NCBI GenBank assembly: GCA_903844845.1
Contig: CAIMVG010000018.1
Span: forward strand, 1-64,000
DNA length: 64,000 nt
Reading direction: 5' to 3'
DNA from: an uncultured Dehalococcoidia bacterium
Lineage (GTDB): Bacteria; Chloroflexota; Dehalococcoidia; Dehalococcoidales; UBA1222
Positions 1 to 53,647 of this stretch are shown here, piece by piece. Positions within the stretch are counted from its first letter, which is position 1. Each line of letters opens with the position of its first letter. The notes beneath the pieces are model-generated. The model was not told the DNA's origin and ran no database searches. It was given only the letters and a program-made list of their open reading frames with translations. Made by a program: the position numbers and the translations under genes.

Positions 1-518
1 TAGACGAATTCAGCCGTCTCGACCTGTACATCCTTGGGTATGTCGATAAGCACGGGGCCCGGCCGACCGGTGCGCGCCAGGTAGAAAGCTTCTTTGACGG
101 TTTTTGCCATGTCGGCGGGGTCGGTCACCATGTAGTTATGCTTGGTGATGGGCAGCGTGATGCCCGTGATATCGATTTCCTGGAAAGCATCTTTGCCGAT
201 GAACGGCCGTCCGACCTGCCCGGTTATCGCCACCATGGGGGTGGAATCCAGGTAGGCGTCGGCGATACCTGTGACCAGATTGGTCGCTCCCGGGCCGGAT
301 GTGGCGAAACATACGCCGACCTTGCCGGTGGCGCGGGCGTAGCCCTGGGCGGCGTGGGCGGCGCCTTGCTCGTGCCCTGTCAGGATGTGCCGCAGTTGCG
401 GGTATTGCGTCAAAGTATCGTACAAAGGCAATATCTGCCCGCCGAGGATGCCGAAGATCGTATCGACGCCCTCTTTGAGCAGGCTTTCACATACTATCTG
501 CGCGCCGGTTATTTTCAT
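1..518 (-). CDS. ilvB: Acetolactate synthase large subunit, N-terminal part (runs off left edge)
   Basis: Condenses two pyruvates, or pyruvate with 2-oxobutyrate, using thiamine diphosphate, the first shared step of valine, leucine and isoleucine synthesis. About 172 residues are visible, starting [20 protein letters not shown], followed by the FGILGG stretch and the [17 protein letters not shown] segment that carries the catalytic glutamate of TPP-dependent carboligases. The ATG lies 7 nt after the ilvD stop, and the AGGAG ribosome site overlaps that stop, so the two genes are translationally linked. The rest of the gene, and probably ilvN, lie outside the window. Close TPP enzymes are possible, but the ilvD neighbour supports acetolactate synthase. 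Confidence 0.93.
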
Positions 519-525
519 ATTACTC

Positions 526-2190
526 CTAAGACAGCACGGCGCCGTGCGCTGCAGAAGTCACCTTTTCCACGTAGCGGGCCAGGTAACCGGAGGTTACCCG
601 CGGTTTGAAAGCGGGGACCTGCGCCAGGCGCTGCGCCATGTCCTCTGCGGACAACAGAACATTCAATTTACAGTTCGGGATATCGACGTCTATGATATCC
701 CCCTCTTTGATGGCGGCGATAGGGCCGCGTAGGGCAGCTTCGGGGGCCACGTGCCCGATGGAGGCGCCCCGTGAGGCACCGGAGAAGCGGCCGTCGGTGA
801 TGAGGGCTACTTCTTTATCCATGCCCATGCCGGCCAGCAGCGAGGTAGGGGTCAGCATCTCGCGCATACCGGGTCCGCCTTTGGGCCCTTCGTAGCGGAT
901 TACCACGACGTCTCCACTTTTGATGAAGCCCGTCATTATGGCTGTCGTGGCCTCGTCCTCGGAGTCGAAAACGCGGGCGGGGCCTTTGTGTACCATCATC
1001 TCGGGAGCCACGGCGGAACGCTTTACCACCGCCCCCTCGGGTGCGATATTGCCGAAGAGAACTGCCAGTCCGCCTTTGGCGGAGTAGGCCGTTTTCTCCG
1101 AACGTATGACGTCGTGATCCTCGACCGCAGCATGGTTGACGATATCGGCCAGCGTTCTGCCGGAGACCGTCTTGCAGTTGATGTTAAGATGCGTCTGTAA
1201 TTCTTTCATGACGGCGGAGATGCCGCCTGCGCGGTCGAGGTCTTCGATATGATATTCGCCGGCAGGGCGTATCTTTGCCAGGCAGGGGGTGTCCTCGCTG
1301 ATGGCATTGATGCGCTCCAGTGAAAATTCTACGCCCGCTTCATGCGCGATGGCCATGAGATGCAGGACTGAATTCGTGCTTCCGCCGAGCGCCATGTCCA
1401 CCGTGAAAGCGTTTTCCAGGGATTTATCATTGATGATGTCTTTGGGCCGGGTGTTAGCCGCCAGCAGCTTCATGACCTGCTCGCCTGCCTGCCACGCCAG
1501 TTTCCATCGGCGCTCGTCCACGGCGGGGATAGTCCCGTTGCCGGGAAGCGCCATGCCCAGCGCCTCGTTAATGCAGTTCATGGTATTGGCCGTGAACATG
1601 CCTGCACACGAACCGCAGCCGGGGCAGGCCGCGTCTACCAGGCATTCCAGTTCAGGCTCGCTCATCTGGTTGTTCAGGACTTTGCCCACACCTTCGAACA
1701 CCGAATTGAGGTCGACTTTCTGGATGCCGTTTTTGGTTTCGAGCCTTCCGGCCAGCATCGGCCCGCCCGAAACGAAGATCGAGGGGATATTCAGCCTTGC
1801 GGCAGCCATCAGCATGCCGGGCACGACTTTGTCGCAATTGGGGATGAAGACCAGCGCGTCGAACTGGTGGGCCTGTGCCATGATTTCGACGGTATCGGCG
1901 ATGAGTTCGCGTGAGGGGAGGCTGTATTTCATGCCGTCGTGGTTCATGGCGATGCCGTCGCAGACGGCGATGGTGTTAAATTCAAAGGGCACGCCGCCGG
2001 CATGGCGGACACCTTCTTTGACTGCCTGTGCCAGTTCGCGCAGGTGGATGTGGCCGGGGACGATTTCAGCGAAGCTGTTGACTACTCCAATGAAGGGGCG
2101 CTGCAGCTCTTCGGGTTTTACCCCGACGGCGCGCAGAAGTGAGCGGTGTGGGGCACGCTCGATACCTTTTTTTACGGCTTCGCTCTTCAT
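526..2190 (-). CDS. ilvD: Dihydroxy-acid dehydratase
   Basis: Dehydrates 2,3-dihydroxy-isovalerate and its methylvalerate homologue to the 2-oxo acids in branched-chain amino acid synthesis; a cytoplasmic Fe-S enzyme. The 554-residue product has the expected full length. Visible family marks are [13 protein letters not shown] and [18 protein letters not shown] (cluster cysteines), [10 protein letters not shown], and the C-terminal [23 protein letters not shown] chose the ATG at 2190 because GGAGA sits just upstream; the frame is open to a GTG at 2250, but that would place the start inside the leader hairpin. First gene of ilvD-ilvB, with its own promoter and an attenuator-like hairpin in the leader. 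Confidence 0.96.
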
Positions 2191-2203
2191 GGTGGTCTCC
2201 CGC

Positions 2204-2233
2204 AAAAATAAAAAAACCGCCGTTGTGGGGCGG
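2204..2233 (-). terminator. Attenuator-like terminator in the ilvD leader
   Basis: On the minus strand a CCGCC/GGCGG stem with a 7-nt loop is followed by seven T, one A and five T. It lies between the promoter and ilvD, ending about 13 nt before the start codon, so it would stop transcription before the operon unless prevented. A GTGGG in the leader (about 2245-2250) can pair with CCCAC covering the loop and one stem base, a possible competing structure. No leader peptide rich in Ile, Leu or Val codons was found. Confidence 0.6.
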
Positions 2234-2264
2234 ATATTTCCAAAACCCACTCAAAGGAACTTCT

Positions 2265-2294
2265 AAAATATCACAGGCACGCTTGGAGTGTCAA
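2265..2294 (-). promoter_or_regulatory. Promoter of ilvD-ilvB
   Basis: A consensus -35 TTGACA (2289-2294) and a -10 TATTTT (2265-2270) are 18 bp apart on the minus strand. Transcription would begin near 2258, giving a leader of about 70 nt that contains the attenuator hairpin. Confidence 0.65.
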
Positions 2295-2355
2295 GAAAAT
2301 CAGGTATGGCCACCGGTTATTCCGTGGGTTTTCGTTTCGGGAGTCGATGCTATGC

Positions 2356-2790
2356 TCAAGGGTTCACAACTATATCAAACGACTCCTGCTGTTGGGGTGG
2401 CTTGCTGGGTACGTATAATGTGATCTGGAATGCGCCGGTTTTCAGAGCTTTAAAAAGAAACGCATTCGGTCCAAAGGGATTGGTTTCATCGCCTGTTCCT
2501 TGGACCGTTTTAGTTTCCACTAATGAGAATGAACTTAGGTCGTTGTTCTGCCACCCCCAGCCAAAAAGAGGGGCAGGTTGAAGTATGATCGCGAAAGTTT
2601 CGTTTATACGGGTATTTATTTTGCTGTTTGAGTCTTTGTAAACCGGCACGCCCGGCCAGGGATCGGGATTTTGCACCGCTGTTGAAGTTGCTATTGTAGT
2701 TGTGGTGTATGTTGGCGTTACTGAACATCCTGCACAGGCAATAGATATTGCCATGCTCAAGATCAATGTTGATAGAATCTTTGTTTTCAC
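2356..2790 (-). CDS. Small lipoprotein, possible chagasin-like (I42) inhibitor domain
   Basis: 144 residues. The N-terminus has a charged start, a hydrophobic stretch and ACAGC, compatible with a lipoprotein signal with the lipid-modified cysteine near residue 19-22. A Thr-rich linker follows. The remaining ~95 residues keep the order of motifs of chagasin-type cysteine protease inhibitors: PAPLFGWGW where the family has NPTTGYxW, a GTG loop, FLFKALKTGAFQITLYV, and a final FDIVV strand. The third inhibitory motif (RPW) is replaced by PSKPP, so the family assignment is tentative and inhibitory activity is doubtful. It would sit on the outer face of the membrane. Monocistronic in appearance. 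Confidence 0.6.
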   Translation of the reverse strand: MKTKILSTLILSMAISIACAGCSVTPTYTTTTIATSTAVQNPDPWPGVPVYKDSNSKINTRINETFAIILQPAPLFGWGWQNNDLSSFSLVETKTVQGTGDETNPFGPNAFLFKALKTGAFQITLYVPSKPPQQQESFDIVVNP

Positions 2791-3030
2791 TATATTTACC
2801 TCGGATTATTTGGCCTATTCATCGTGGTTGTATTCAAGAACATCAACCCGGGTCAACGCTCTGTTACTATACAACGCAAATCTGTCTATTTGGGTACTTT
2901 CAGTAACGTAATGAGCTATAAAAGACCGGCGAAGGTTGAAGGTGGCCCGAGTTTGTATGGGGGAATGATGGATGAGTGACGTTGAAGTCTACAAAAAAGA
3001 AATAGAAACTGGTTCACCGGGGAACCGCTA

Positions 3031-3615
3031 TTAGTCTTCGACGGCTGAAACGATTTGTTGTTTGTTGATCGCCGCGAAAGGGCCGGTTCTAAATAATTGG
3101 CTGCCAAGCGTTATGTTCACATCTGTCATGGGCAGGAAAAAAGCCCCATCGTTCAAGACATCTGATGTCTGCTGGTTCTTGGCTTGGAATAAATTCCCGG
3201 TGATGACATACTTCTGGACTTCCACGCTCAATTTCATCGGGGTTTTTGAAACGAAGGGATAAACTTTCGCATCCTTCCGGGCGCCGACCCCCCTTCCGAG
3301 GTTCTCATCCGAGGCTAAGACAAATAATATCAGGTCTTTTTTTAACCAGATAGTTCTTCGCTGTGCGCTCTCGGAGTCCTTGGTGGTCGATTCTTTGATC
3401 TGGATAAACTCTATTTTTCTATTTTGCAGTCCCGCGTTAGGGGTATTGAACATATCCAGGATACGCATTCCGTCGGGGCATGAGATAGTGCCGGTAATTA
3501 CTTGAGTTTGTGTAAAGAAATCGAGTTCAACCAGCTCACAGGACTGAAAAAGCGACAGGTCGCGAGAAGTCTGTGGATGTTGGATTTTATAGGCAATAGT
3601 AGTATCTATGCTCAT
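3031..3615 (-). CDS. Hypothetical protein with two repeated modules
   Basis: 194 residues with no signal peptide or membrane segment; I do not recognise a characterised family. It appears built from two copies of one module: residues ~29-106 and ~126-193 share VITG near the start, a DxxN turn, an F-x(3-6)-(E/D)-(F/V) strand, and a last strand of the pattern L/I-x-K-x(2)-I-x-F/A-V. The first copy ends KKDLILFVLASDE and the second NKQQIVSAVED. This suggests a small all-beta module used as an intramolecular pair. The ATG at 3615 follows an AT-rich upstream region. Function unknown. Confidence 0.6.
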   Translation of the reverse strand: MSIDTTIAYKIQHPQTSRDLSLFQSCELVELDFFTQTQVITGTISCPDGMRILDMFNTPNAGLQNRKIEFIQIKESTTKDSESAQRRTIWLKKDLILFVLASDENLGRGVGARKDAKVYPFVSKTPMKLSVEVQKYVITGNLFQAKNQQTSDVLNDGAFFLPMTDVNITLGSQLFRTGPFAAINKQQIVSAVED

Positions 3616-34359: not shown

Positions 34360-36876
34360 TTATTCTTCTTTTTTTTGTTCTTGTGTTCTTGGATCGGAAA
34401 GAAGCCGTTTGCGCATTAATTTGCAGAAAATCTCTACCAGTTCGGGATCAAATTGGGTTCCGGCACATCTCTTAAGCTCGGTGAGGGCATCCTCCAGTGT
34501 AAACTGGGTCCTGTAAGACCTCGGGGAAGTCATAGCGTCGTATGCGTCGGCAATTGAAAGAATGCGCGCCTCGATGGGGATATTTGTACCTTTGAGTCCG
34601 TCGGGATATCCGCTGCCGTCGAAATGCTCGTGATGGTGAAGGATGGCCGGCAAGCAATTGTTCAGGTCTGCGACATGCTTAAGTATTTCCACGCCAAGTT
34701 CCGGGTGCGTGCGTATAGGGCTCCATTCTTCGCCTGTAAGGGCAGACTGTTTCGTAAGGATAGAATCAGGTACGCCTACTTTGCCTATATCATGCAGCAG
34801 CCCTGCAGCACGAAGCAGGCCGACCCGGTCGTTGGGCATATCAAGTTCTTCAGCCATTAAAACGGCGTATTCACTGACCTTACGTGAATGCCCGTATGTA
34901 TAATTGTCTTTTGCGTCAACTGTCGCGGCGAGTGCATAGATGATACTCAACGCGTTGGGATTGGTATCCAGTTCTATCCCTCTAAAGCTGGTCCCTGTCT
35001 CCACCACTTCTGAAGAAAGGCAGGTACGGTTTCGCCCCAATTGCTTGGCTTTGTACATCGCCGCGTCTGCCTTCCGGATGATTTCCTCTTTTATTACCCC
35101 GTCATTCGGCCAGTTTGCCACACCGATGCTCATGGTTATCGGCATCGTCCTGGACCCGCTCTTTGAGTCGATAGTTTTACGCATGCGTTCTGCCACCTTG
35201 TAGGCGTCGTCCATGCGGGCTTCAGGTAAAATAACAGCGAATTCCTCACCGCCATAGCGGAAAGCCATGTCGATTCCCCGGACGGAACTCTGGAGATAAT
35301 GTCCTACGCGGCGCAATACCTGGTCGCCGGCAAGGTGACCGTAGATATCGTTGAAGGATTTGAAGAGGTCTATATCCATCAGTATCAATGAAAAGGTAGT
35401 CCCGAAACGGGAGCCGCGTGCGATTTCCTGTTCGAGACGTTCATGGAAATGCCTGTGATTATAAAGCCCTGTCAGTTCATCGGTATTGGCGCGTATGTTT
35501 GCTCTGGTAAAAAGTTGCGCATTCTCAACTATGACCCCGGCCTGGTTGGCCATGGCACGTATCAGTTCGAGGTCTTCGTGGGAATAAGGACGGTCGGAAG
35601 TCTTTTGCCCCAATGCCAGGACGCAGATTAGGCGGTCGCGGCTTTTCAGCGGATAGAGTATCCCGATGCTGCTGTTTGTCAGTTGCTCTCGTTCGGCTTG
35701 CCAGAGTCCTTTGAACTCAGGGATATTTTCCAATTGCCTCGGGTCGAGTGCACTGTCGTTGCGGTCCAGCCATGAAATTACAAGACTGTCGGCACTCAGA
35801 GAAAACTCTTTCGCGGTGGCCTGTTCCGGCTGGATATATTTAAGAACAAACTCGCCGCTGTCGTTGTTTTGGAGGAGCATGCCGGCCCAACTGATGTTCA
35901 AGGCCTTGCATAGCGTGGGAAGCATCTCGAGCGCCAGTTCGTTCAGGTCAAGTATGTAACCCATTTTGGCGCTGAATCCCATTACGGCGTTACGGTATTC
36001 GTACGTCTGTGGATAGAAAATACGGTCAACAAGTTTCTGTACGATTAGGTGCAGTGGACGGAAAGCCGCTACTAACAGTAGGAAAACGACGGCCACCAGC
36101 ATAGCCGTGCCCAATAGATTTTGATTTGGGAACCGCATGACGATCAGGAAGGTTCCGATCGAGCCTCCGATCACCAGCATGAGCGAAACTACGTAGGATA
36201 ATCCGGTTCTTGCCACCCACTTGATGTCGAGCAGTCGATACTGTGATATGGCATAGGTGATGATTAGTGCGTTGATAAGGTTTCCGATATGGTCCAAAGG
36301 CAGATTAGAGAGGCTTTTTATATAGTTTGTATAAGTCAAAAGTACCAGCAGTGCCCACCCGACGAAAAGGTATTTGGTACGATTGTGCTCCTTTGGATTG
36401 TTAAAGGCCCTGTACCGTACCCACAGGATGCCTATTACCAGGATGCTGAAGGCCAATCCTGTAATACCGATGAACAGTTTGGCAGGTGTGTACAGCACGT
36501 AATCGGTAACGCCGTTTATTACGGAGGAAGATTCGACGACATGCCCTGTAGCCGATAGCATGGCAAGTAGTGCCAGGGCGCCGTATGCGATATACATCGG
36601 TATACCCGGGCGGCGTTCTGTATATCCCAGTGCGAAATGGTAATAGGCTACCAGTGTCCAGATTAGTGCGACGACCAGTATTTTATTCCAGAAGATTGTC
36701 TGGGAGGGTGGTGCATTAAGGTGCACCATGAAAGACGTAAAGCTCCAGAAAGCGGCGACTCCAAGATAATAGGCAAATAATTTTCCTAAACGGCTGCCCG
36801 TTCTCTGGAGCGAGAACGCCAGCAGGATGATGTATGCACAGGAAGTGATTAAGGGGATGAGCGCCAGCGTATTCAA
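34360..36876 (-). CDS. Membrane protein with GAF, GGDEF and HD-GYP domains
   Basis: 838 residues. N-terminal ~230 residues form about 7-8 membrane helices of the 7TM sensor kinase type, then a helical stretch, a GAF domain (~340-470), GGDEF (~480-640) and HD-GYP (~650-830). The cyclase site is intact (RYGGEEFAVILPEA), and RGID five residues before it is a standard RxxD inhibitory site. The HD-GYP residues are intact (LLHDIGKVGVPDSIL, HHEHFDGSGYPDGLKGTNIP). It may both make and break c-di-GMP, or one half may dominate. The TTG start at 36876 follows CCAGGAGG, 6 nt spacing. Own promoter with a dyad operator. Confidence 0.9.
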   Translation of the reverse strand: MNTLALIPLITSCAYIILLAFSLQRTGSRLGKLFAYYLGVAAFWSFTSFMVHLNAPPSQTIFWNKILVVALIWTLVAYYHFALGYTERRPGIPMYIAYGALALLAMLSATGHVVESSSVINGVTDYVLYTPAKLFIGITGLAFSILVIGILWVRYRAFNNPKEHNRTKYLFVGWALLVLLTYTNYIKSLSNLPLDHIGNLINALIITYAISQYRLLDIKWVARTGLSYVVSLMLVIGGSIGTFLIVMRFPNQNLLGTAMLVAVVFLLLVAAFRPLHLIVQKLVDRIFYPQTYEYRNAVMGFSAKMGYILDLNELALEMLPTLCKALNISWAGMLLQNNDSGEFVLKYIQPEQATAKEFSLSADSLVISWLDRNDSALDPRQLENIPEFKGLWQAEREQLTNSSIGILYPLKSRDRLICVLALGQKTSDRPYSHEDLELIRAMANQAGVIVENAQLFTRANIRANTDELTGLYNHRHFHERLEQEIARGSRFGTTFSLILMDIDLFKSFNDIYGHLAGDQVLRRVGHYLQSSVRGIDMAFRYGGEEFAVILPEARMDDAYKVAERMRKTIDSKSGSRTMPITMSIGVANWPNDGVIKEEIIRKADAAMYKAKQLGRNRTCLSSEVVETGTSFRGIELDTNPNALSIIYALAATVDAKDNYTYGHSRKVSEYAVLMAEELDMPNDRVGLLRAAGLLHDIGKVGVPDSILTKQSALTGEEWSPIRTHPELGVEILKHVADLNNCLPAILHHHEHFDGSGYPDGLKGTNIPIEARILSIADAYDAMTSPRSYRTQFTLEDALTELKRCAGTQFDPELVEIFCKLMRKRLLSDPRTQEQKKEE

Positions 36877-45074: not shown

Positions 45075-48000
45075 TTACCTTATAAGGTATGTTATGGCTC
45101 CGCCGGTGATAGCGTCGCTCCTGAAGGAGATGATAATAAATATCAAGGTAAAACCGTCACTTCCTGTGGGTAGATTTATTTGGGCGGAGGTATCCCCGGC
45201 ATGGATAACAGGGTAGTTAACGTAAAACGTATCGATATCACCCCCGGAAGATGGCAGAGGCTGGGACTTCCAGTCCCAAACATTATCTACATTGGTAGAA
45301 ACGCTGTTGTTCAGTTTAACGCTGTTGACCTGGAATGAATCTCCGGTGATGCTGGAGTCGCCTTCGCCGACAAAAACCGTTATTTTGCTGGAGTTGGCCT
45401 CGGCCTCGATACCTTGCGGCACAAGAAATCCGCTTATTATTCCGCCGTCCACCCCGTCACCATCGAAGTCGGGATTATCTCTTTCTCCGCTGGCCCATGC
45501 TTCGGAAAATTTAAAATTGGGGTTCATTATATCGTATAGCCATAATTGATGCCCTGCTGTTTGCGGACTGGAATATATAAGGACGATTGACCAGCTGCCG
45601 TAGGTATAGTTGTATCTGGAGCTAGACCCCGGTTGGCCAGATGGGCTCGCTAACGGATACCCTGTCGACCCTCCTCCTGAAAACGTTTTCGAATACGCAG
45701 TATCTTCAGTATTGGAGGCGACGACGTGCCCGAAAGTATAGGTTGCCGCACCGCTGGCGGTAACCTGACCGGCGTTGATCCAGCTTGTTATTAAAGCTGT
45801 GGCGTCGAACATCGCGTCGTATGCCCATGTGCCGGTGTAATCGCCTCCGCCTGTTGTCGGAAGCACCTGGTACGTTGTCGCAGTAATCGTTTGAAGATTT
45901 CCGGAGGTGCTGCCGAATTTTACCCTGTTGATTTTTGCTACATTTTCCACCAGGTTGCTGATACTTCCCGGTGTCGCGTTAGTCGGATATTCCAGTGTTG
46001 GGCCTGAAATAGCTATGCTGTCAATAGTCACCGTTGATGAACTTGAAGCAGCTGTGATCTTGTAGCGCATCTTAAACGCGGCGGTCTTATAGTTTGTCGG
46101 TGACGCCGGGATAAGAAAACTGGCATAACCGTTGGCCATTGTAGAATTAAGGCATTCGGTGTCCGCGCTCCATGTACTGCCGCCATCGTTTGAGAAACTG
46201 AAATACAGATGATCGCCTGAAGTAAAAGTGTCGGTAATGCTGCTCCATGCAATGGCCACGCTTATTGCAGAATACGCAGAGAGGTTGATAGGGTTGGCCA
46301 TGGTCAGGTAACTGTTGGCTGTGGTCCCCCCTCCAACGGCTCTGAACTGATTGCTTGCAAGACTCCAGGTGGTGCCTGTCTGCGTCCATTTTGCCAGGCT
46401 GCTGCAGTCGTCAGAAAATAGAGCAGGATTGACGAATTTGATATTGTCCAGATAAATGATTTTACTCGTTGAGCTTAAGGTGGTGCAGAAGCGCATCCGG
46501 GAAGAAGCCGTTATGTCTGCGCTCGGAATGGTCACCGGCCCGTAAGTCACAAGAGAGGTGGTAAACTTCGCATCGTTCCCGGCAACCGTGGCGATGGTAG
46601 TCCATGCGGAGCCGGTCCAGACCTGGCAATACAGATAATCAGTTGCGGCTAGAGCTGTAGCTCCTCTGGCCTGGTCCCAATATAAGTTGACTGTTTTTCC
46701 GGCGTATGCGCTTAAATCGATTGAAGCGGACGTCAATGTTCCGGTAGCATCCCCGGTGCCGGTTGTTGTTCCTGTAACTTTAAACACTGGGTTACTCGAT
46801 AAGGAATAATTTGCGCTCCATTTACTGCCGTTTGTCCAGGTAGGTCCCGGAGACGCCGAGAAACTCACGCCGTTTTCGATATCCGGCGGAGAGATGGTTA
46901 TATCGCTAGCCCCATATGGATTATAACCATTCCAATCTATCCATCCGCTCCAATAAAGGTATGCCGCAGCCAGAGTCCCGTTGGAAGGGACACCTGTAAG
47001 CGGGTCAGAGGTCGTAGCGACAACAGCTGTTGTCGAATTGTAGAGTGCATCATGCATGCTGGTATTGCCGCCCAATATACTCCCGCCGGTAGCGTAATAG
47101 TCGCCGTTTACTGCACCTCCGATCGGGCGTGCATCCTGGTGGATCAACAATGAATCAATTTTCGTGGCGCTCGAGCTCACCGATGTGGAACTAAGCTGCA
47201 ATACGTGTGTAGAGGCATCCCAGGCGTAGGGTATACTTGCAACACCGCTGGTGGTTATCCACCCGACGGCCTGTGCAATCGTACTGGTTTCCTGCCCCGT
47301 TTTATCATATCTGTACCAGAAGGTGGCTTTAACTTTCATCGGGTTGTCTGAGACGTTGATGCCTGGCAGGTTTTTAAAGAGTGTATTCGCAGGAAGCGTC
47401 CATAGCACTGACGTCCCCCCGGCAAATTGGCTGATTGTCGGTGTCCCCGGATTGTAAGTTTGGCCGTTCATCTGAAAGGGGTGGGTTCCGTCTACCGGGT
47501 AATAAGAAAAACCCGGGGGCAGCCATACACCTATGGTTGTCACGTAAAGGTTTTCTCCGGATGCGGGATAATATGTCAATTCCACCTGAAATTTCCTGGC
47601 GTTGGCATCGACCATCCCTTGCGGGTCACTGCCTACAACAACGAGTTTGGCCGTTTGAATTATACCCAGGGCCTGTGTGATTTCGGTCGAAGTATCCGGG
47701 ACATTCACATTCGACACTACCCACACGTTTTTTATGGCAACTTTTACGTTACGATCATTGACTGCCGCTTTATTTGAGACGTTATAAACCCCGGTTGTGC
47801 TTGGGTAATATACACCATATTCTGTCGACGCCAGGCCGGTTTCATGCCATGGGGGATTAGCAGAAAAATCGAATTGATTATATATATTGGGAGACAAATA
47901 AATCGTGCTTAGTCGGCCGTTTTGTATCTGCCACCTTGCGTCCTGTATCCCTGCGTCTGCGGTGTAAAAGTCGTCAGCTTTCTCCTGATAAACCCGTCCG

Positions 48001-48137
48001 CTTTTATAATCGGTATTTACGTAATTCAAAAGCGGGGGTAATGTCAATGCCACTATAGCGATAAAAACCAAAACGTATACGAGGATCACACCGCTCTGAT
48101 GACGCATCAGTTTTGCCAATTGGCTATATTTCTTCAT
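45075..48137 (-). CDS. Large PilX-like minor pilin / adhesin
   Basis: 1020 residues. The N-terminus MKKYSQLAKLMRHQSGVILVYVLVFIAIVALTL is a class-III-like prepilin or PilX signal without Glu5, followed by DDFYTADAGIQDARWQIQNG, the PilX pattern. The rest is secreted, beta-rich, Ser/Thr/Gly-rich sequence with at least two jelly-roll (carbohydrate-binding or MAM-like) repeats at ~420-570 and ~575-720 that share the YLDNIKFVN and VTIDSIAISGPT endings. A third region (~750-1000) includes EDTAYSKTFSGGGSTG and WSIVLIYSSPQ. Likely a tip adhesin assembled by the pilus. Confidence 0.75.
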   Translation of the reverse strand: MKKYSQLAKLMRHQSGVILVYVLVFIAIVALTLPPLLNYVNTDYKSGRVYQEKADDFYTADAGIQDARWQIQNGRLSTIYLSPNIYNQFDFSANPPWHETGLASTEYGVYYPSTTGVYNVSNKAAVNDRNVKVAIKNVWVVSNVNVPDTSTEITQALGIIQTAKLVVVGSDPQGMVDANARKFQVELTYYPASGENLYVTTIGVWLPPGFSYYPVDGTHPFQMNGQTYNPGTPTISQFAGGTSVLWTLPANTLFKNLPGINVSDNPMKVKATFWYRYDKTGQETSTIAQAVGWITTSGVASIPYAWDASTHVLQLSSTSVSSSATKIDSLLIHQDARPIGGAVNGDYYATGGSILGGNTSMHDALYNSTTAVVATTSDPLTGVPSNGTLAAAYLYWSGWIDWNGYNPYGASDITISPPDIENGVSFSASPGPTWTNGSKWSANYSLSSNPVFKVTGTTTGTGDATGTLTSASIDLSAYAGKTVNLYWDQARGATALAATDYLYCQVWTGSAWTTIATVAGNDAKFTTSLVTYGPVTIPSADITASSRMRFCTTLSSTSKIIYLDNIKFVNPALFSDDCSSLAKWTQTGTTWSLASNQFRAVGGGTTANSYLTMANPINLSAYSAISVAIAWSSITDTFTSGDHLYFSFSNDGGSTWSADTECLNSTMANGYASFLIPASPTNYKTAAFKMRYKITAASSSSTVTIDSIAISGPTLEYPTNATPGSISNLVENVAKINRVKFGSTSGNLQTITATTYQVLPTTGGGDYTGTWAYDAMFDATALITSWINAGQVTASGAATYTFGHVVASNTEDTAYSKTFSGGGSTGYPLASPSGQPGSSSRYNYTYGSWSIVLIYSSPQTAGHQLWLYDIMNPNFKFSEAWASGERDNPDFDGDGVDGGIISGFLVPQGIEAEANSSKITVFVGEGDSSITGDSFQVNSVKLNNSVSTNVDNVWDWKSQPLPSSGGDIDTFYVNYPVIHAGDTSAQINLPTGSDGFTLIFIIISFRSDAITGGAITYLIR

Positions 48138-49084: not shown

Positions 49085-50293
49085 TTATTTAACCTGTCCA
49101 TAAAGGCCGTACATGGCAGAGACCATCGTCGTTGCAAGTAAAGCTACCACTGCGCCCAGCACAACAGTCATTATAGGTTGAATCAGTCCCACTGCGGCGG
49201 CAGTCTTGTCGTCGGCTTCGACTTCGTATGTTTCGGCAACGGTTGCCAGAGTATTATCCAGGTTGCCTGTTTCTTCGCCAACCTCGACCATCTGGACCAT
49301 CAATGGCAAGAAAAACGGCCGCTTTGCCATTGGTTTTGAAAGGCCCTCTCCCCGGATAAGGTCCTTTTGCACGCCTTCGATTGACTCCGCTACGATCGTG
49401 TTGTTGGTATTCTGAACGGACAAGGCCATGATGTCCGGCAGCGGTAATCCCACTTTGAAGAGAAGCGCCATAGTACGGCAAAGCCGTGCCAACTCATTTA
49501 AATTATTGATTCTCCCGATGATGGGCATGCGAAGCATAACTCTGTCGATCTCATATTTTCCCCGGCGGGTCCTCGACACTGCAAATCCTGCTCCCGCGAG
49601 CAGTGCGGCTCCTATCAATAAATACAAACCGTTGTTCTTCAGCCAGGCGGAAGTGTCTAGCAATGTTTTTGCGGACTTTGGCAAGTTGGCTCCGAAAGCC
49701 ACATACAAAGAAGAAAATGATGGAATCACGAACTGCACCATGATCGCGATAACCACGACTGCTGCGACCAGCACCATGATTGGGTAGCTCAGCGCGCCTT
49801 TTATTTTCTTTTGAGTCAGGATTCGCTTTTCCATATAATCAGCCATCTGGCGCATGACGGTCTCCATGCTTCCGCTTTTTTCGCCAGCTGAGACAGCCCT
49901 CCAGTAAAGGGCGGGGAATACGCGAGGGTGCTTTCTCATCGCATTGGACAGGGAGGATCCGCCCCGTATATCAGCGGCGACTTCAGACAGCTTCTTTTTC
50001 AATTCTTTATCGGTAACCTGGGTTTGCAGCAATTCGAGAGAAGCTATGATGTCTGTGCCGGAACTCAGGAGCAACGCCATCTGGCGCGAAAACATGATTA
50101 CCTCTTTAGGGTTTACCTTACTGAGAGACATGTTTAGTTTTTCGGAACTTAAAAACGCTGGCTTGCTTTTTAAGCTGAGCACCTGGAAACCGCTCGCGTT
50201 CAATAGCGTGTTAGCGGCCCCTTCGTTCGATGCGTTTAGTTTTCCTTTGGTTAATCTTCTGTTTTTGTTGTAAGCAACGTATGTGTATTCCAT
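49085..50293 (-). CDS. pilC: Type IV pilus inner-membrane platform protein
   Basis: 402 residues; the polytopic GspF/PilC protein that PilB turns or pushes. N-terminal YTYVAYNKNRRLTKGKLNA, first GspF domain with FSRQMALLLSSGTDIIASLELLQ, a membrane segment around ~175-195, PSFSSLYVAFGANLP (family landmark), second GspF domain with RTMALLFKVGLPLPDIMAL and VGEETGNLDNTLATVAETYE, and a final membrane segment. Start ATG 50293; 13 nt after pilB. Confidence 0.94.
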   Translation of the reverse strand: MEYTYVAYNKNRRLTKGKLNASNEGAANTLLNASGFQVLSLKSKPAFLSSEKLNMSLSKVNPKEVIMFSRQMALLLSSGTDIIASLELLQTQVTDKELKKKLSEVAADIRGGSSLSNAMRKHPRVFPALYWRAVSAGEKSGSMETVMRQMADYMEKRILTQKKIKGALSYPIMVLVAAVVVIAIMVQFVIPSFSSLYVAFGANLPKSAKTLLDTSAWLKNNGLYLLIGAALLAGAGFAVSRTRRGKYEIDRVMLRMPIIGRINNLNELARLCRTMALLFKVGLPLPDIMALSVQNTNNTIVAESIEGVQKDLIRGEGLSKPMAKRPFFLPLMVQMVEVGEETGNLDNTLATVAETYEVEADDKTAAAVGLIQPIMTVVLGAVVALLATTMVSAMYGLYGQVK

Positions 50294-50306: not shown

Positions 50307-52400
50307 CTATTCGATTGAATAGGTCGTACGTATGATCTCCGTAGGCGTCGTAAGCCCCATCTTTACTTTCAGCATACCGTCACGTGTCATAGTTACCAAG
50401 CCTTCTTTAATGGCTTCGTTCCGGATGTCGGCCGGCGTAGCACCGCCGATGATCATGCGTCGCAGCGTGTCGCTCATTGCCAGTATTTCAAAAATACCGA
50501 TACGCCCCAGGTATCCTGTAAAAGCGCATGTTTTACAGCCGCTGGCATATGTGAACTTGGAGCGAACTTCCTTCATTTCCTTTTCATACGATAATTGTTC
50601 GGCCGGCGAAGCTTCGACGGTATGCTGGCAATCTGGGCACAGACGTCGGACCATACGCTGGGCCACTATACCGATAACACCTGAAGCGATAATGAATGGC
50701 TCGACGCCAAGGTCTATCAGTCGGTACAAGACGCCGATTGTGTCATTTGCATGGATAGAAGATAGCATGAGATGCCCGGTCAGGGCTGCCTGCACAGCGA
50801 TATTGGCAGTTTCCGCATCCCGGATCTCACCTACCAGGATAACGTCTGGGTCGAGTCGGAGGATGGAGCGTAGGCCGCTGGCAAAGGTTATCCCCGCCTG
50901 ATTGTTTACCTGGATCTGGTTGATGTCGTCGAAGCGATATTCGGCCGGGTCTTCAACGGTGATAACGTTGCGTCCCATGGTGTCCAACGAACTCAGAGAA
51001 GCGTATAGCGTGGTCGTTTTACCAGCCCCTGTCGGGCCGCTTACCAGCAACATCCCGTAGGGGACCTTAAGCAATTTTTCATATTTGACAAGGCTTTCAG
51101 GCAAGAATCCCAGGTCAGCCAGGCCGCGGGTGGCCGTGGATTTGTCAAGCAGACGCAAAACAGCCATTTCCCCGTATACGGTAGGTGAAGTGGCGACGCG
51201 GATATCTATCTTTCTGGATTTTGATTCGGTAGAAAACTGTCCGTCTTGGGCGTGGAAGTGGTCTGCGATATTTAATTCTGACAATATCTTCAGGCGCGAT
51301 ATTAAAGCTAAATGAATACTAATCGGCAGGGACATCATGTCCTGGAGTGTGCCGTCGATACGATACCGTATTCTCAGCCGTTTCTCCTGTGGTTCGATGT
51401 GTATGTCAGAAGCCCTGGCTTTTACTGCTTCGTCGATGATTAGATTGAGTGCCTGCACCAGCGGTGTGTTGGTTGCCGCATCCATGGCCAATTTGTCATC
51501 AAAAACACTGTCGGATGTCTGAATGATGGATACCTGTTTTTCGATCTCGCTATATCCTTTATAGCTGAAATCGATGGCATCGCGTACTTCCTTGCTAGTA
51601 GCAGCCATGGGTTTGATACGCTTATGTGTTTGGAACGCAAACGCTTCCAGCGCCAGGATATCGCTGGGGTCAGCCATGGCGACCACCATGGTATTACCGG
51701 TAATACTGATGGGGATAGCGTTGTAGCGTCGTGCAAGTACTTCGGGTATCATCTGCACCGCTTCAGGCGTTGCCATTTTTCTAAGTTGCGCATGGTCCCC
51801 CGTCGGTCCTGTTTTCTTTGCAGCTTCCGTAGTGTTCTCTTCAAATATAAGGATTGGTATTTCTCCGACTGTCGTGCTGCCTAATCCTAAAACCTTGATC
51901 CCTTTATTTTCGACGAAAAGCCTTGCGCGCGGGCTGAGTTCTGCGTCCTGGAGGGCGATGGCTTTGTCGTCTACCCCCGTATCGAAAGCTTTTGCCTCGA
52001 AAAATACAACTCGCTCCAGATCTATAACCTTTTCTCCGCCCAGTATGTCTATAGCCAGACTATGGGCAATGCGGTCACTCGAAGCATAAGCCAGAAGGTC
52101 AAAGGTGTATTCCACACCCGTTCTCCCGCTTATTTTGGTGTTTTCTTCTATGGTATAGCCGAGGTTCACCAGACTGTCCATTAGCGCCCTCTTGTTATCA
52201 AAGCGAAAAACCGTGGCACGAGGTTTGTGAGGGCGTATCGTCAAGAATGATTCGAGTTTCGATTCTTCGACAATTTTGATACGCAGTTTCTCAGCCATTT
52301 GGCGGCTTTCGTTGTCCAGAGGTTGACTGGCTATAAGGACTCGATCTTTGATTCCGGCGTCATAGGCATTATTGGCAAAATCGAAAATCGTCGCTGTCAC
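50307..52400 (-). CDS. pilB: Pilus assembly ATPase with an added nuclease-like N-terminal domain
   Basis: 697 residues from GTG 52400. Residues ~1-55 are the second half of a PD-(D/E)xK-like domain whose first half is in the frame upstream; ~65-175 are a complete second copy (RALMDSLVNLGYTIEE, SGRTGVEYTFDLLA, AKAFDTGVDDKAIAL, KGIKVLGLG). Next comes an MshEN domain (~205-285), then the ATPase: SGPTGAGKTTTLYAS, VEDPAEYRFDDINQ, LRLDPDVILVGEIRDAE, TGHLMLSSIHAND, and a tetracysteine zinc site (CPDC, CKTC). The motor parts are intact. The nuclease residues (D-E-x-K) are degenerate. In-frame stop at 52404-52406 separates it from the upstream frame. Confidence 0.9.
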   Translation of the reverse strand: MTATIFDFANNAYDAGIKDRVLIASQPLDNESRQMAEKLRIKIVEESKLESFLTIRPHKPRATVFRFDNKRALMDSLVNLGYTIEENTKISGRTGVEYTFDLLAYASSDRIAHSLAIDILGGEKVIDLERVVFFEAKAFDTGVDDKAIALQDAELSPRARLFVENKGIKVLGLGSTTVGEIPILIFEENTTEAAKKTGPTGDHAQLRKMATPEAVQMIPEVLARRYNAIPISITGNTMVVAMADPSDILALEAFAFQTHKRIKPMAATSKEVRDAIDFSYKGYSEIEKQVSIIQTSDSVFDDKLAMDAATNTPLVQALNLIIDEAVKARASDIHIEPQEKRLRIRYRIDGTLQDMMSLPISIHLALISRLKILSELNIADHFHAQDGQFSTESKSRKIDIRVATSPTVYGEMAVLRLLDKSTATRGLADLGFLPESLVKYEKLLKVPYGMLLVSGPTGAGKTTTLYASLSSLDTMGRNVITVEDPAEYRFDDINQIQVNNQAGITFASGLRSILRLDPDVILVGEIRDAETANIAVQAALTGHLMLSSIHANDTIGVLYRLIDLGVEPFIIASGVIGIVAQRMVRRLCPDCQHTVEASPAEQLSYEKEMKEVRSKFTYASGCKTCAFTGYLGRIGIFEILAMSDTLRRMIIGGATPADIRNEAIKEGLVTMTRDGMLKVKMGLTTPTEIIRTTYSIE

Positions 52401-52403
52401 CGA

Positions 52404-52616
52404 TTACTTGTCGCCTTCCGTTAAAATGACGAACGCCATCAAATGCATCGTGAAGCCATCGTCGTTCTGTGCCAACAAATCGAAGGCATGTTCTATTCCT
52501 GATTTGCCTATGCGGCGTGCGGAAGCAAGGACCTGGTAGCCCTGCGATTCAAGATAAGACTTAAGTCGGGCCTCCACTTGCTTCCTGGTATCTGGGACGA
52601 CGGTTTTAATGGTCAT
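52404..52616 (-). CDS. Upstream half of the PilB N-terminal domain, ended by an in-frame TAA
   Basis: 70 residues (MTIKTVVPDTRKQVEARLKS ... FVILTEGDK). The sequence QGYQVLASARRIGKSGIEHAFDLLA repeats the first half of the domain at residues ~70-110 of PilB. It is in the same frame as pilB; only TAA and one codon separate its last lysine from the GTG taken as the pilB start. So the first domain copy continues across the stop. Either it is a broken gene, or a separate chain that complements PilB, or the stop is read through. Good ATG but the ribosome site is weak. Confidence 0.7.
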   Translation of the reverse strand: MTIKTVVPDTRKQVEARLKSYLESQGYQVLASARRIGKSGIEHAFDLLAQNDDGFTMHLMAFVILTEGDK

Positions 52617-52705: not shown

Positions 52706-53380
52706 TCATTTATTTCCGCCCAACTGAATGAGCCCCCGCCTGATTGCCAGTACCACCGCGTGAGCGCGGTCATTCGCATTGAGCTTGCGTAAAATCGCAC
52801 TTACATGGTTTTTAATCGTTTGTTCACTAATGTTAAGGACACTGGCTATTTGTTTGTTGGTATTACCTTCAGCAACGTAAGTTAGTATCTGCGTTTCCCG
52901 CTGTGTCAACGGGGTTACTATATTTGTTCCCAGTTGGGCCATAGTCTGGAACTCATGGAGTACCTGCCGGGCCACTAGCGGCCTGTTCATCAAACTCTCG
53001 TTGATGGGATATTCCCCGCTGGAAGCCCTACGTACGATACCGATAAGTTCTTCAGAAGTGGAGTTTTTTGCAAGGCAAGCCACAGCTGAGCTCCTTATTG
53101 CATCGAAAAGTGTTTGGTCGTTTGGGTTAGGGCTCATAATGACAACGCGTGTATTTGGAAAATTGCGCGCGATGCGTGCCCCGAGTTCAAGCCCACTCTG
53201 GCTTGCGAGGTCCGAGCCCAGCAGCACTATATCGGGAAAACTCGTGTCTATGGTTGCTAAAATATCGGTGTTGGGATCACCTTCTAAAATGTCGAAATCA
53301 TGTTCCTTTAATAATGCTTGGCGCACTCCGGCTCTGAAAAAAGGTTGCTCGTCAATTACCATCACTTTGGTTTTAGCCAC
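52706..53380 (-). CDS. LuxR/NarL-type regulator with an atypical receiver domain
   Basis: 224 residues; GTG start with AAGGAGGT in front. Receiver (~4-120): MVIDEQPFF has the acidic pair and CLAKNST the lysine, but the phospho-acceptor position in PDIVLLG-SDLAS is Gly instead of Asp. The C-terminal HTH (~155-220) is complete: LTQRETQILTYVAEGNTNKQIASVLNISEQTIKNHVSAILRKL. So it probably works without phosphorylation. It lies between the HTH gene and pilB and likely controls the pilus operon. Confidence 0.85.
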   Translation of the reverse strand: MAKTKVMVIDEQPFFRAGVRQALLKEHDFDILEGDPNTDILATIDTSFPDIVLLGSDLASQSGLELGARIARNFPNTRVVIMSPNPNDQTLFDAIRSSAVACLAKNSTSEELIGIVRRASSGEYPINESLMNRPLVARQVLHEFQTMAQLGTNIVTPLTQRETQILTYVAEGNTNKQIASVLNISEQTIKNHVSAILRKLNANDRAHAVVLAIRRGLIQLGGNK

Positions 53381-53425: not shown

Positions 53426-53647
53426 TTATTTCTCAGCCTCTTTGTTCAAATTCAATGTTTGCTCACCGCTAAAAAGTGCGTCTACGTCGCCTTTTCTAAA
53501 ACGTCGATCTCCCCGTGAGCCGATACGATAGGATTTGATGGCCCCTTGATTGCTCCATCGCCTAACAGTATTGATGTGGACGTTAAGGATCCTGGCGACT
53601 TCGCTTGTCGTCAACATCGGCTCTATTTGATCGTTTTGATCGGCCAT
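53426..53647 (-). CDS. Small excisionase/MerR-type DNA-binding protein
   Basis: 73 residues with a single winged HTH: LTTSEVARILNVHINTVRRWSNQGAIKSYRIGSRGDRRFRKGDVDAL, the pattern of the excisionase family/BldC-like regulators. An acidic N-terminus and a short charged tail flank it; no sensory domain. ATG 53647 with AGAGAGG upstream. First gene of the pilus-side cluster. Its promoter carries two AGTACTAA(A)GG elements that may be its own operator. Confidence 0.82.
   Translation of the reverse strand: MADQNDQIEPMLTTSEVARILNVHINTVRRWSNQGAIKSYRIGSRGDRRFRKGDVDALFSGEQTLNLNKEAEK

Follow-up and report, generated by a model that had tools for sequence, protein, structure and literature searches.

A tandem of predicted inactive PD-(D/E)xK domains in place of MshEN_N on the PilB pilus motor of Dehalococcoidia

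The window analyzed here, a 64,000-nucleotide stretch from an uncultured Dehalococcoidia bacterium, encodes a type IV pilus extension ATPase, PilB, whose N-terminus is shown by structure prediction and profile comparison to be a tandem of two PD-(D/E)xK (Mrr-type) domains, both predicted to be catalytically dead. We refer to them as iREase copies 1 and 2. As shown by alignment, the tandem occupies the position of the MshEN_N subdomain in a Dehalococcoidia clade of PilB, in which MshEN_C alone is kept. Judging by the orthologs, the tandem is conserved across this clade in many families and is not an oddity of the window genome. The usual view is that type IV pilus motors are regulated via MshEN, PilZ, or c-di-GMP. 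We consider it rather probable that the dead-nuclease tandem serves for signal input or docking and thereby controls the extension motor via protein contacts.

Domain composition of the window PilB

The window PilB is by far the strongest T2SSE match of its genome and the sole full-length PilB-type protein among six matches, the other five being shorter and far weaker. It contains the T2SSE ATPase domain and MshEN_C, and its gene lies in a pil operon; its score, 507.6 bits, is below the cut-off of 675.65 bits for the PilB equivalog (TIGR02538, NCBIfam). The preliminary description of this locus, made from the sequence alone, interpreted about 175 extra N-terminal residues as one and a half copies of a PD-(D/E)xK-like domain and found the missing half in a short frame upstream. 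The coordinates and the description of both frames proved correct (Table 1). The in-house profile places the second half of copy 1 at residues 4–48 of the PilB frame and the whole of copy 2 at residues 66–175, and it also matches the upstream frame. With the stop read through, the joined frame, with two full copies, has 769 residues.

Table 1. Features of the pilB region in the window
Feature	Position	Strand	Content and evidence
pilB ORF as read	50307..52400	-	697 aa, GTG start; second half of iREase copy 1, copy 2, MshEN_C, ATPase
70-codon ATG frame upstream of pilB, same frame	52404..52616	-	First half of iREase copy 1; iREase profile E 1e-20
In-frame TAA ending the 70-codon frame	52404..52406	-	Private to the window genome; GAA in the nearest relative, then the same TCG codon
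iREase copy 1, read through, residues 1-126	52239..52616	-	Mrr_cat E 0.0014; AlphaFold2 model
iREase copy 2, intact	51879..52217	-	AlphaFold2 pLDDT 89.6; PDB 1y88 TM 0.65
MshEN_C (ND1) subdomain	51570..51773	-	PF05157 E 1.2e-15; MshEN_N (ND0) absent
T2SSE ATPase domain of PilB	50328..51476	-	PF00437 E 2.6e-122
LuxR/NarL-type response regulator directly upstream of pilB	52706..53380	-	Pfam Response_reg and GerE; position kept in most fused loci
HTH_17/MerR-type small regulator	53426..53647	-	Conserved beside the response regulator (synteny)
PilC (T2SSF) directly downstream of pilB	49085..50293	-	PF00482 E 4.8e-56; synteny

The two window copies resemble each other, with a local score of 96 (shuffled sequences: mean 27.7, maximum 55; z = 13), and the family profiles of copies 1 and 2 align at 99.9% probability. 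Read through, copy 1 scores 19.2 bits against Mrr_cat, for which the Pfam cut-off is 21, and copy 2 gives no match; related proteins are above the cut-off. The best Mrr_cat E-value among orthologous copies is 2.1e-9, and the TackOD1-linked proteins described below are clearly above the cut-off. Mrr_cat and NA-iREase1 are matched by 14 and 7 of 16 copy-1 sequences and by 14 and 8 of 19 copy-2 sequences, respectively. AlphaFold2 predicts the fold with confidence (pLDDT 83.8 when the two copies are modelled together, and higher for copy 2 alone). The PD-(D/E)xK proteins matched in Foldseek include AF1548 (PDB 1y88, E = 2.8e-6), MspJI, AspBHI, EndoMS, Bax1, and two CRISPR nucleases, Can2 and Cdn1; RPB5 is matched as well. 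PDB sequence searches with the domain profiles gave nothing useful; structure comparison alone gave matches. The nuclease-like fold suggested earlier is thus supported both by the predicted structures and by the Mrr_cat matches of the orthologs. A role of the tandem in a defense system was rejected because no PADLOC match was found; a search of plasmids with copy 1 also gave no match.

The alignment of the window PilB with solved PilBs starts only at chain residues 70–93 (87–93 in Geobacter PilB); that of a canonical Dehalococcoidia PilB starts at residues 5–25 (20–25 in Geobacter PilB). By alignment, the MshEN_N subdomain is not present in the window PilB, and no RLG motif is found in its N-terminus. 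It is mainly MshEN_N that binds c-di-GMP (PMC5013675). A 7TM-GAF-GGDEF-HD protein (34360–36876, minus strand) lies near the pil locus, and therefore c-di-GMP enzymes are encoded in the vicinity of a PilB that lacks the c-di-GMP-binding subdomain. Most fused loci, like the bare f34 loci, share the gene order HTH_17 regulator, LuxR-type response regulator, pilB, pilC, and both pilC and pilM stay near pilB. Another protein encoded in the window pil locus (45075–48137, minus strand; 1020 residues) resembles pilins at its N-terminus and matches no Pfam family at E 1e-5.

Gene architectures and phylogeny

The iREase domain was found in 42 of 294 genomes of the class Dehalococcoidia, and in a phylum-wide sample of 400 genomes it occurs only in this class. 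The layouts include the fused tandem, bare PilB, and bare PilB with an upstream gene encoding a TackOD1-iREase2 protein. The fused form is also present in the genomes taken as D. mccartyi 195 (G137), D. lykanthroporepellens BL-DC-9 (G152), and Ca. D. loeffleri W (G174), the latter two being Dehalogenimonas strains. Two loci (L031 and L032) have a single iREase copy on PilB. In several clade members (L126, L127, L129, L130, L132, and L134) PilB is bare and a search for iREase gave nothing, and the module is therefore dispensable. The L116 PilB (274–3582, a frame of 1103 residues) carries four iREase copies in two tandem pairs; the fused PilBs of L120–L125 are 884–1285 residues long, their tandem and MshEN_C being separated by long linkers that are unexplained; and the L128 PilB (333–2054) may retain a remnant of one copy (residues 4–39, E = 9e-5).

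TackOD1 has been described in combination with REC domains and from type IV pilus loci of thaumarchaea (PMC5847659, PMC4858521). In Dehalococcoidia, the TackOD1-iREase2 gene is located directly upstream of a bare PilB gene in L131, L133, and L135–L137, the two frames being 3–22 nt apart. In L131 (1871–1873) and L135 (1912–1914) one stop codon and a few further codons part TackOD1-iREase2 from a PilB in the same frame, and the fused and split forms here would be about one mutation apart. Both a fused PilB and a TackOD1-iREase2 gene are present in L119 and G030; in the window genome neither TackOD1 nor TackOD1-iREase2 was found. A third form, REC-TackOD1-iREase2, is encoded in L150 (1496–3538) and L151 (1232–3376), and its L149 counterpart reaches the contig end before any REC part. 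The L151 gene adjoins those of an OmpR-type regulator and a GAF-histidine kinase; the neighbors in L149 and L150 are glycosyltransferase and epimerase genes. None of these genes for REC-TackOD1-iREase2 lies in a pil locus within the stretches read. A search for GAF in the window genome gave no lead.

In the tree of PilB cores, the PilBs associated with iREase group with their bare relatives in a single clade, separate from the canonical PilBs (SH-aLRT 99), and the split loci, together with L119, are sister to the rest. In the domain tree, which is based on 116 columns and has many weak forks, copies 1 and 2 separate whether they are carried by PilB or by TackOD1, the exception being the second copies of the L013 and L014 adaptors. 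Because this split is largely independent of the carrier protein, the tandem, the result of one old duplication, seems to have moved as a unit.

The in-frame stop codon

The window PilB is the only one with an internal stop in the class-wide search. The expectation that orthologs would have a continuous reading frame was confirmed in all other genomes where both copies are readable: continuous two-copy frames were observed at 40 other loci, with 772–1285 residues from stop to stop, one of them ending at a contig end. At the stop site, the nearest relative, a member of the same genus, reads GAA and shares the TCG codon that follows; in most of the others the codon is GAA or GAG. The upstream half of copy 1 shows no visible decay; its pN/pS of 0.29 is inside the range of 0.11–0.50 for intact gene pairs (pair L114–L117 left out). 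Since the nearest relative has GAA and the upstream half is still constrained, comparison with the relatives indicates that the TAA is a private change, either a recent nonsense mutation (GAA to TAA) or an assembly error.

If the TAA is real, translation probably restarts at the GTG at 52400, one codon past the stop, and the product would be a PilB with half of copy 1, the whole of copy 2, MshEN_C, and the ATPase domain. Recoding at the stop was rejected, as no supporting RNA structure was found at the site (z = +1.2) and every relative lacks the stop. The same two observations argue against a functional stop, that is, two chains or a read-through product made on purpose. The proximity of the GTG and the adaptors that are one stop apart from PilB in two other genomes would fit such a function, as would the constraint on the upstream half, but the latter is equally expected after a recent change or an error, and we regard a functional stop as very improbable.

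Possible role of the tandem and comparison with known systems

The preliminary description called the catalytic acid and lysine positions degenerate, and this holds for the family: [DEQ]xK is present at the expected strand in none of 102 copies, and about 90% retain the first acid (39 of 42 copies 1, 38 of 44 copies 2, and 15 of 16 TackOD1-linked copies). Because no copy has [DEQ]xK and the second acid is retained in copy 2 only (43 of 44), the domains appear to have lost catalytic activity, although copy 2 calls for slight caution. The latter conserves D42 (38/44), D60 (43/44), and K81 (42/44), as an active nuclease with the lysine shifted to the following helix might. However, the helix lysine is retained throughout all copy types, and K81 is equally conserved in the copies without the second acid, that is, copy 1 and the TackOD1-linked ones; thus, it is more likely structural, and nuclease activity of copy 2 is extremely improbable. 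The earlier suggestion that the domains bind DNA, for example during DNA uptake, is in line with a fold akin to that of DNA-cutting enzymes, but it is weakened by the loss of the catalytic motif and by the mean net charge of about −2 to −4 per copy in fused and TackOD1-linked forms alike. DNA binding is less likely because of this acidity, and we consider it improbable.

The TackOD1-iREase2 and REC-TackOD1-iREase2 proteins lend circumstantial support to the other earlier suggestion, a role in signaling. A precedent is X. citri PilZ, which binds the N-terminal domain of PilB and acts through it (PMC8389850). The association with TackOD1 and REC, this precedent, and the existence of fused and split genes point to a signaling module that would act physically on PilB through protein contacts. 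In some lineages the tandem would be supplied in trans by the TackOD1-iREase2 protein encoded beside a bare PilB; in the window lineage it would act in cis, fused to the motor. REC-TackOD1-iREase2 could receive a phosphoryl signal, but its genes lie outside the pil loci in the stretches read, those of L149 and L150 beside the glycosyltransferase and epimerase genes named above. The bare PilBs of several clade members and the absence of TackOD1-iREase2 from the window genome also argue against a signaling module. RPB5 is a dead nuclease fold that serves as a protein-contact domain. Its presence among the structural matches, the position of the tandem, equivalent to ND0, and the proximity of pilC and pilM would be consistent with a purely structural role, in which the tandem shapes the PilB hexamer or anchors PilB to PilM or PilC with no signal input. 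Such a role seems rather unlikely, given that the same tandem is found behind a receiver domain and that bare PilBs do without it. Returning to the input or docking module that we favor, a more detailed scenario, which we offer tentatively and think doubtful as a whole, is that the clade replaced c-di-GMP control of the motor by a tandem signaled via TackOD1 and a phosphorylated receiver, with lineages switching between trans and cis whenever a single stop codon is gained or lost.

In the open-access literature searched, we found no earlier description of the iREase-PilB architecture. A PilB clade across a whole bacterial class, the one that includes the pollutant-degrading Dehalococcoides and other cultured organohalide respirers, seems to rely on a different input module, one with a dead-nuclease fold. 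The fused, split, and receiver-linked versions amount to natural experiments, and the fused form in D. mccartyi 195 and Dehalogenimonas strains makes the idea testable. TackOD1, an output domain with no known function, also gains a context.

The window protein shares the ATPase domain, MshEN_C, and a pil locus with PilC, PilM, and PilT with the PilB/GspE-family extension ATPases (TIGR02538, TIGR02533). Unlike these, it has the dead-nuclease tandem for MshEN_N and scores below the equivalog cut-offs. An N-terminal input module on the motor is likewise observed in the MshEN control of MshE and Thermus PilF and in the X. citri PilB-PilZ-FimX system; these use MshEN_N or PilZ/FimX with c-di-GMP, whereas MshEN_N is absent from the window PilB. 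With Mrr_cat (PF04471) and NA-iREase1 (PF22722) of the PD-(D/E)xK superfamily the tandem has in common the fold, a profile match (for window copy 1 slightly below the cut-off), and the conserved first acid, but it lacks (D/E)xK, consists of two copies, is joined to a pilus motor or TackOD1, and has no defense-system match. Finally, TackOD1 output-domain proteins (PF18551; arCOG06883) contain a zinc ribbon that occurs together with REC and close to type IV pilus genes. In contrast to those elsewhere, the Dehalococcoidia TackOD1 carries a C-terminal iREase tandem, and the window PilB has the tandem without TackOD1.
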